Below are positions 26,063 to 27,385 of a stretch of 64,000 nucleotides of DNA, piece by piece (within the stretch, counting starts at the first letter, position 1; every line of letters begins with the position of its first letter). The DNA is from Halorientalis litorea. GTDB taxonomy: Archaea > Halobacteriota > Halobacteria > Halobacteriales > Haloarculaceae. The notes beneath the pieces were generated by a model. That model saw only the letters and a list, made by a program, of their open reading frames with translations, was not told the origin of the DNA and searched no databases. The position numbers and the translations under genes are program-made. The stretch lies in NCBI RefSeq assembly GCF_023028225.1, contig NZ_CP095482.1, positions 682,001 through 746,000 of the forward strand, read 5' to 3'.

Positions 26063-26644
26063 ATGAGTGAACCGCCGGGAGAGTTCTACACGCCGGACCG
26101 TTGGCAGAACTGGATCGACAGAATCGACGAGGAGGACATCGACCCCGAGGACGAGGACTCGGCGCGACTTCTGTTGAACCTCCAGGACGACACCGCCATC
26201 GCGGTGGCGAAGATACTCACGGCCTACGACGAGGGCCACATCGACGAGGAGGAGACGCTGGAAGAACTCGCCGACGTGCGCGAAATCGTCCTCGCGGAGG
26301 TCGACATCCCCGACGAGGAGAAGGTGATGCTGGTGGACGGCGTCCAGACGTCGCTCGTTCCGGTGTTCTACGCCGCCGAGGAGTACGTCGCCGGTGGCGT
26401 CGCCGAGGAGGGCACCGTCGCCGACTACATCCACGCGGCCGCCGACGCGGAGAGCGAGGAGGACCCGGACGCGGCACTGGGCTACTGCGCACAGGCCGGG
26501 ACGCTCATCATCGACGGCGAGGACCTCCCGATGGACGTGGCCGAGGAGTTGGAGTTCGGACTCGTCGCGGAGTGGGTCAACGGCCTCGACAGCCTCCAGA
26601 CGGCCATGAGCGACCCCGAAGTCGTCGAAGAGGACGACGCCTGA
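26063..26644 (+). CDS. DUF2150 family protein
   Basis: This 193-residue, extremely acidic helical protein belongs to the haloarchaeal/archaeal DUF2150 family, whose function is unknown. Start-proximal sequence FYTPDRWQNWIDRIDEED is characteristic. The stop codon TGA at 26642-26644 directly touches the hairpin-rich IS605-like relic (TGACATCCTCCC), so the present C-terminus could have been set by that insertion. The protein nevertheless appears full length. Confidence 0.85.
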   Translation: MSEPPGEFYTPDRWQNWIDRIDEEDIDPEDEDSARLLLNLQDDTAIAVAKILTAYDEGHIDEEETLEELADVREIVLAEVDIPDEEKVMLVDGVQTSLVPVFYAAEEYVAGGVAEEGTVADYIHAAADAESEEDPDAALGYCAQAGTLIIDGEDLPMDVAEELEFGLVAEWVNGLDSLQTAMSDPEVVEEDDA

Positions 26645-26930
26645 CATCCTCCCATGGCTAAAGCCGTGGGGTTCCCGGCCACAGGCCGGGCAGTCCACGG
26701 CGGGAGGTTCCCCACTCGTACGCGGTGGGGTTGTGGGCCGTGCCAGTACGGCCCCCGGCCGAGATAGCGGGCTTCATCTACCCCCGCGAAGGGTGCGTAT
26801 CCTTACCTCGGACTCGGCATCACAACCAACGAACGCCGACACGATCAGCGTTTCGCCGGCTGTCGGCTTCATCCCACGACTGAAGTCGTGGGCTTTCGCC
26901 TCGAAACTCTGTAATCCGAGAGCCCGCCAC
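26643..26930. mobile_element. IS200/IS605-type relic (MITE or omega-RNA-like hairpin array)
   Basis: This non-coding stretch carries five strong hairpins. They are CCCATGGC/GCCGTGGG (26651-26670), CCCGGCC/GGCCGGG (26674-26690), CCCCAC/GTGGGG (26710-26730), GGGCCGT/ACGGCCC (26735-26754) and, at the far end, CCCACGAC-TGAA-GTCGTGGG (26873-26892). The two terminal hairpins and the flanks (GACATCCTCCC at one end, GGCTTTCGCCTCGAAACTCT at the other) look like ends of haloarchaeal IS200/IS605-family elements as I remember them. No tnpA or tnpB codons remain. It may be a MITE derived from such an element or a remnant of the TnpB guide RNA. Exact ends and orientation are uncertain. Confidence 0.62.
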
Positions 26931-26965: not shown

Positions 26966-27385
26966 ATGGCCACGCGCGCACAGTCCGAGACAGTCGGCGT
27001 CGTGTTGCTCGTCGCCGTCGTCGTCACCCTCGTCGGACTGGTGAGTGCCGTCGCACTCTCGGACATCGGCGGCGACGAGGGACCGCTCGCTGACCTCGAC
27101 GTGAGCGCGAACGAGACGAACCTGACCGTCGAACACCGGGGCGGCGACGACCTCGCCGTCGGTGACCTCGCTATCGTCCTCCGCTCGTCGTCGGAGTCCC
27201 GGCGCGTCACCGTCGATAGAATCAACCTGACCGACAGGAACGGTGACGGGCAGTTCGGCCTCGGTGACCGCATCGTCCGTGCCCACGGACTCGACGGCGA
27301 CAGCGCGAACGTCGCCGTCGTCCACACGCCGTCGAACACGGTGTTGCTCGACGAGGCGGTGTCGTTGCGCGACCCGGACTTCTGA
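26966..27385 (+). CDS. type IV pilin-like protein
   Basis: A 139-residue protein with a class III prepilin signal: a short basic N-terminus (MATRAQ), then SETVGVVLLVAVVVTLVGLV as the processing and assembly helix. It would be cleaved by the PibD/FlaK-type peptidase. The rest is beta-rich with an Asp-rich DRNGDGQFGLGD loop that could bind calcium. It precedes a much larger pilin-like gene by 62 bp on the same strand, so the two may form one fibre or adhesin unit. Confidence 0.82.
   Translation: MATRAQSETVGVVLLVAVVVTLVGLVSAVALSDIGGDEGPLADLDVSANETNLTVEHRGGDDLAVGDLAIVLRSSSESRRVTVDRINLTDRNGDGQFGLGDRIVRAHGLDGDSANVAVVHTPSNTVLLDEAVSLRDPDF

Follow-up and report, generated by a model that had tools for sequence, protein, structure and literature searches.

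A 270-bp segment at the 3′ end of a DUF2150 gene in Halorientalis litorea is a complete non-autonomous IS200/IS605 element, a palindrome-associated transposable element (PATE), that spans positions 26641 to 26910 of the window (the whole 64,000-nucleotide stretch of DNA analyzed here) and lies on the minus strand relative to tnpA/tnpB. We consider it probable that this is a haloarchaeal PATE that has lost tnpA and tnpB and has kept both TnpA-recognized ends together with a complete omega-RNA (TnpB guide RNA) scaffold, possibly under its own promoter. The segment is a PATE by all features that could be tested, and the overall interpretation of an earlier sequence-only reading of this DNA, which had proposed either a non-autonomous IS605-type copy (MITE) or a surviving guide-RNA-like RNA left after the loss of tnpB, is supported as largely right.

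The ends of the element are common to 54 distinct insertion sites, all of them haloarchaeal and at unrelated places. Across copies, the terminus on the DUF2150 side reads C followed by TGACATCC, with the C present in nearly all, and the opposite terminus extends to the target tetranucleotide GTAA (TTAC on the minus strand; 26911 to 26914), the presumed TAM, which is found at nearly all copies and agrees base for base with the intact gene of relatives. In the window, the left side of the element is its conventional right or guide-RNA end, which abuts DUF2150, and the right side is its conventional left end. A sister copy in Halorubrum splits a gene that is intact in relatives. Once the two flanks of this copy are spliced in the order left + GTAA + right, they can be aligned with the intact genes with no gap at the junction and no duplication. 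This gapless junction establishes that the element is 270 bp long and starts with CTGA, that it inserts 3′ of the short target TTAC (GTAA on the opposite strand) without duplicating it, and that the C before the DUF2150 TGA is part of the element. The extent first proposed, 26643 to 26930, is thus corrected to an element at 26641 to 26910 plus the target at 26911 to 26914. We found no transposase open reading frame within the 270-bp element, which agrees with the size of a PATE and with the earlier statement that transposase codons are lacking.

All five hairpins described previously could be located, at 26651 to 26670 (CCCATGGC-TAAA-GCCGTGGG), 26674 to 26690 (CCCGGCC-ACA-GGCCGGG), 26710 to 26730 (CCCCAC...GTGGGG), 26735 to 26754 (GGGCCGTGCCAGTACGGCCC), and 26873 to 26892 (CCCACGAC-TGAA-GTCGTGGG). 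The region is more stable than its shuffles, with a folding energy of −132.4 versus −115.0 ± 5.5 kcal/mol (z = −3.2; 1/200 shuffles). The first and the last of these hairpins are the right-end and left-end subterminal hairpins, respectively, and both are also found in the tnpA- and tnpB-bearing element of the same genome, as subterminal palindromes of the IS605 type.

This autonomous element (L024) is delimited by two short stretches that share 97% and 91% identity with the PATE ends; they lie ≈1.69 kb apart and bracket genes for a Y1 transposase TnpA of 137 codons and a TnpB of 384 codons. It provides the one intact Y1 TnpA with matching ends in the genome, and the cognate TnpB gene is present as well; homologous ends beside tnpA and tnpB, whose absence the sequence-only reading had named as evidence against itself, do therefore exist. 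A second Y1 transposase gene in this genome (G000:C2:44448-44807) is broken by one TAG stop. In a search of 392 genomes of the order, relatives of the PATE occur in 27 genomes, in 21 genera; many are full length, up to 93% identical, and situated at unrelated places. A copy from another family, at 93% identity, is closer than that of a congener, at 81%, which suggests that the element has spread horizontally. When one genome per species was scanned for the motif, 36 stretches were retrieved, again all haloarchaeal, with carriers that include Natronomonas, Halorubrum, Halapricum, Haloquadratum, Natrinema, Halomarina, and Halogranum. Of the 19 carrier genomes examined, only three (the H. litorea genome itself, G263, and G363) were confirmed to hold a matching tnpA+tnpB partner, so that many hosts either lack the helper or rely on a different element; this scarcity of confirmed partner elements is what most weakens the guide-RNA interpretation. 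Two copies (L042/L106 and L047/L119) have a left end like that of autonomous L024 (TTACAGCGGTAGC...) in place of the usual TTACAGAGTTTC, which suggests an exchange of ends between elements. Another locus, L054 (G378:C5, ≈1500 to 1690), is a solo guide-RNA remnant, i.e., a right-end/omega-RNA stretch without a left end and with a variant terminus (GTGATATCC), located at the stop of a gene that ends in NLAKSVTVE.

The right-end 180 nt of the element (26641 to 26820, minus strand, read from 26820 to 26641) are predicted to encode an omega-RNA scaffold, an assignment supported by covariation, by a loop/TEM pseudoknot, and by the match of a covariance model, R1, to tnpB 3′ ends. In an alignment of 29 copies, 97.4% of the cells in the consensus structure are paired, and there are 12 double-changed pairs with 56 such cells, versus 7.2 and 13.4 in shuffles and 3 to 11 cells in slid controls; the shuffle-based significance is inflated by the kinship of the copies. 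Covariation is strongest in a long-range helix formed by 26804 to 26811 with 26759 to 26766 (26759 to 26811 overall, minus strand), in which GC/CG and AU/GC exchanges are found in 7 and 10 of 28 distinct sequences; this helix is interior, where TnpA requires no hairpin. The second hairpin (26735 to 26754, minus strand) presents a loop, CUGGC (26742 to 26746), that pairs with the TEM, GUCAG (26641 to 26645), in 97.9% of cells, and the autonomous relative L038 carries the compensatory pair GUGGC/GUCAC. R1 was built from non-autonomous copies only, and the window copy, being in the training set, obtains its score of 209.8 bits by construction. When run on the H. litorea genome, R1 returns strong matches only to the PATE and to the 3′ end of the autonomous tnpB (97.6 bits); on a congener, it identifies three relatives of the autonomous element with 103 to 105 bits, and the tnpB ends of G263 and G363 also match. 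In autonomous elements, this long-range helix is made up of other bases and falls within the coding sequence of tnpB. These features bear out, for a predicted RNA, the earlier suggestion that a guide-RNA-like RNA outlived tnpB. The covariation may be a legacy of tnpB-bearing parents from which the copies descended recently, or it may stem from right ends that were captured repeatedly.

An unlikely alternative is a plain mobile PATE with no acting guide RNA, the scaffold of which was inherited from the parent and is now selected only as a DNA substrate of TnpA. The ends and the target suffice to explain mobility, most carriers are without a matching tnpB, and PATEs of 52 bp with two ends only appear mobile in Haloquadratum (PMC3119063). 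On the other hand, the neutral interior of such an element would be expected to decay, yet across the 29 copies interior helices that TnpA does not need stay paired by way of double changes, and the loop/TEM pseudoknot persists.

The BRE-like CGAAAC at 26850 to 26855 (minus strand), which precedes the first helix of the omega-RNA by 38 nt, is a lead to a possible promoter of the element's own. In 17 of 27 copies, the core CGAAA, the proposed haloarchaeal BRE (PMC4983044), stands at exactly −38 from that helix, within a spacer between left end and scaffold that is otherwise variable; most copies have a weak TATA part, the copies are related, and we treat the motif as a lead only. A sigma-70 promoter scan, the model of which is unsuited to archaea, found nothing. 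From the known layout of omega-RNAs, the guide is predicted to be GCGTCGTCCTCTTCGACGAC (26621 to 26640, minus strand), in the flank just beyond the TEM and antisense to the 3′ end of DUF2150. No TTAC-flanked match to this predicted guide was found elsewhere in the H. litorea genome, as expected when the only site is occupied. A 14-nt exact match on contig C4 (G000:C4:21512-21529) is flanked by CAAC and not TTAC, falls in a GC-rich, repeat-like coding context, and is probably due to chance.

This antisense arrangement, in which the predicted RNA would overlap the 3′ end of DUF2150, and the placement of the hairpins between two genes of the same direction could also be accommodated by a domesticated RNA with a host role, e.g., as an antisense regulator acting on the DUF2150 3′ end or as a terminator between DUF2150 and the downstream pilin gene. 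We regard this as very improbable, given that the element is present at the DUF2150 locus in none of seven congeners, that the family occupies unrelated loci, and that the guide finds no TTAC-flanked match elsewhere in its own genome. Still less credible is a dead relic, i.e., an IS605 element decaying after a single internal deletion: although the coding capacity is nil, the 270-bp layout and its conserved structure are found again in 21 genera, and the window copy retains both ends, all helices, and the TEM. The term “relic,” used for this segment at the outset, is misleading, as the family is conserved and widespread and the element complete rather than decayed. A private one-off relic was likewise considered and rejected, as 27 of the genomes searched, from 21 genera, contain relatives.

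The DUF2150 gene (26063 to 26644, plus strand; Pfam PF09920, profile positions 1 to 189 of 189, E 5e-69) is full length and ends in the element, which supplies its TGA stop (26642 to 26644, plus strand), followed directly by CATCCTCCC. The sequence-only reading had observed that this TGA runs straight into the element and had surmised that it was donated by it; both points hold, and other copies behave likewise at other genes. The rebuilt empty site reads GAC GAC GCG TAA TCC and the occupied site GAC GAC GCC TGA, such that the original stop was TAA and the protein end is unchanged; this empty site is a reconstruction and not an observed strain, and a search for a strain of H. litorea with an empty DUF2150 site found none. 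In congeners, DUF2150 stops at or near the same point with its own TGA, TAG, or TAA, and the downstream sequence is not conserved. The start of the segment at a stop codon might suggest an ordinary DUF2150 3′ untranslated region, a reading with next to no probability, in that congeners have a short, unrelated sequence there and the same sequence as in the window is found at many unrelated loci. In Natronomonas, a cysteinyl-tRNA synthetase with a PATE at its stop ends in ...YRL, at the same place as its relatives. The element TGA also ends a phosphate acetyltransferase-type protein, an imidazoleglycerol-phosphate dehydratase, a thymidylate kinase, an acyl-CoA dehydrogenase, and a TrmB regulator, the C-terminal Pfam domains of which are near-complete.

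By the counts of a home-made gene caller, in which flanks are short at six sites and variant ends are seen at L054 and L070, both among the 13 stop-codon sites, insertions at stop codons make up 13 of the 54 distinct sites versus 44 of 708 GTAA sites in a sample of genomic DNA (Fisher p = 6e-5), and insertions in gene interiors 5 of 54 versus 441 of 708. The excess at stops over all GTAA sites arises mostly because gene interiors are avoided. Active targeting of stop codons was rejected, since the excess is not significant against intergenic GTAA alone (13:36 versus 44:223, p = 0.11), and the stop-codon insertions reflect tolerance rather than targeting. The data support a register between the right terminus, CTGA as read on the opposite strand, and GTAA, by which xxG TAA becomes xxC TGA and the stop position is kept; TAA stops preceded by G are thereby harmless landing sites. 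This register may simply follow from the use by TnpA of similar left and right cleavage motifs. On the far side of the element, an archaeal type IV pilin gene (window 26966 to 27385) begins 51 bp downstream of the target, and its upstream ACCTATTGC resembles the ATACTATTGC of congeners, from which it appears that the element stopped short of the likely pilin promoter.

To return to a PATE that has kept its omega-RNA, we infer a cycle that depends on proteins supplied in trans. TnpA would move the PATE as single-stranded DNA between TTAC sites, and a landing on xxG TAA would yield xxC TGA, with the stop of the gene kept in place. An RNA read towards the right end would take up the adjoining host DNA as its guide, which at this locus is antisense to the DUF2150 3′ end, and would be loaded into TnpB. 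The loaded TnpB would cleave element-free copies of the locus, recognized by TTAC and a match to the guide, and repair from the occupied copy would favor retention of the PATE. A stronger formulation, which we advance tentatively and with the balance tipped somewhat against it, is that this PATE family amounts to a mobile guide-RNA gene that drives its own transcription and, at 270 bp, parasitizes TnpA for its movement and TnpB for its retention, spread horizontally across the haloarchaea, with CTGA kept in the GTAA register such that stops are safe landing sites. TnpB is the ancestor of CRISPR-Cas12, and the study of Meers et al. 2023 is said to treat TnpB and transposon retention and to touch on non-autonomous elements. 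If TnpB loads PATE RNA in trans, the smallest IS605 parasites would be guide-RNA genes, and the role of TnpB in keeping transposons would become testable with a protein-free 270-bp element. The change from xxG TAA to xxC TGA explains how such elements can reside harmlessly on stop codons, and the alignment obtained here supplies a seed alignment of a haloarchaeal omega-RNA.

Among known systems, IS608 (ISHp608) and its relatives use the target TTAC, transpose as single strands, and have subterminal hairpins; compared with IS608, the window PATE is haloarchaeal, is without tnpA or tnpB, and has the right end TCAG. The Rfam family RF00062 (HgcC) matches the PATE at window 26628 to 26756 (minus strand) with 28.2 bits and also matches autonomous right ends by tnpB (L036, 2566 to 2710; L037, 2537 to 2678; L024, 2631 to 2775), in both classes on the omega-RNA strand, yet with no more than 44.3 bits in relatives versus the Rfam gathering score of 50 bits; HgcC is thus probably itself an archaeal IS605 omega-RNA. 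The omega-RNAs (sotRNAs) of Halobacterium IS200/IS605 elements (PMC12558985) likewise place the scaffold at the tnpB 3′ end or right end, with a right-end hairpin, a pseudoknot between second-hairpin loop and TEM, and a guide taken from the flank, the last of which is predicted here. Those sotRNAs overlap tnpB, whereas the window scaffold stands alone and coding-free between transposon ends. The closest counterparts are the PATEs of Haloquadratum walsbyi, especially HqIRS71 (Dyall-Smith et al. 2011, PMC3119063), which are likewise without a transposase gene and have near-terminal palindromes, IS605-like ends, no inverted terminal repeats, and no target duplication; HqIRS71 has also retained a portion of the sequence coding for the TnpB C terminus. 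In the available portion of that paper they figure as DNA elements only, and the window PATE differs in its interior omega-RNA under selection, its BRE-like motif, and its stop-replacing end. The kind of element was already known, and what is added here, judged against this part of the paper, is a predicted omega-RNA under selection, a possible promoter of its own, and the stop-codon register.
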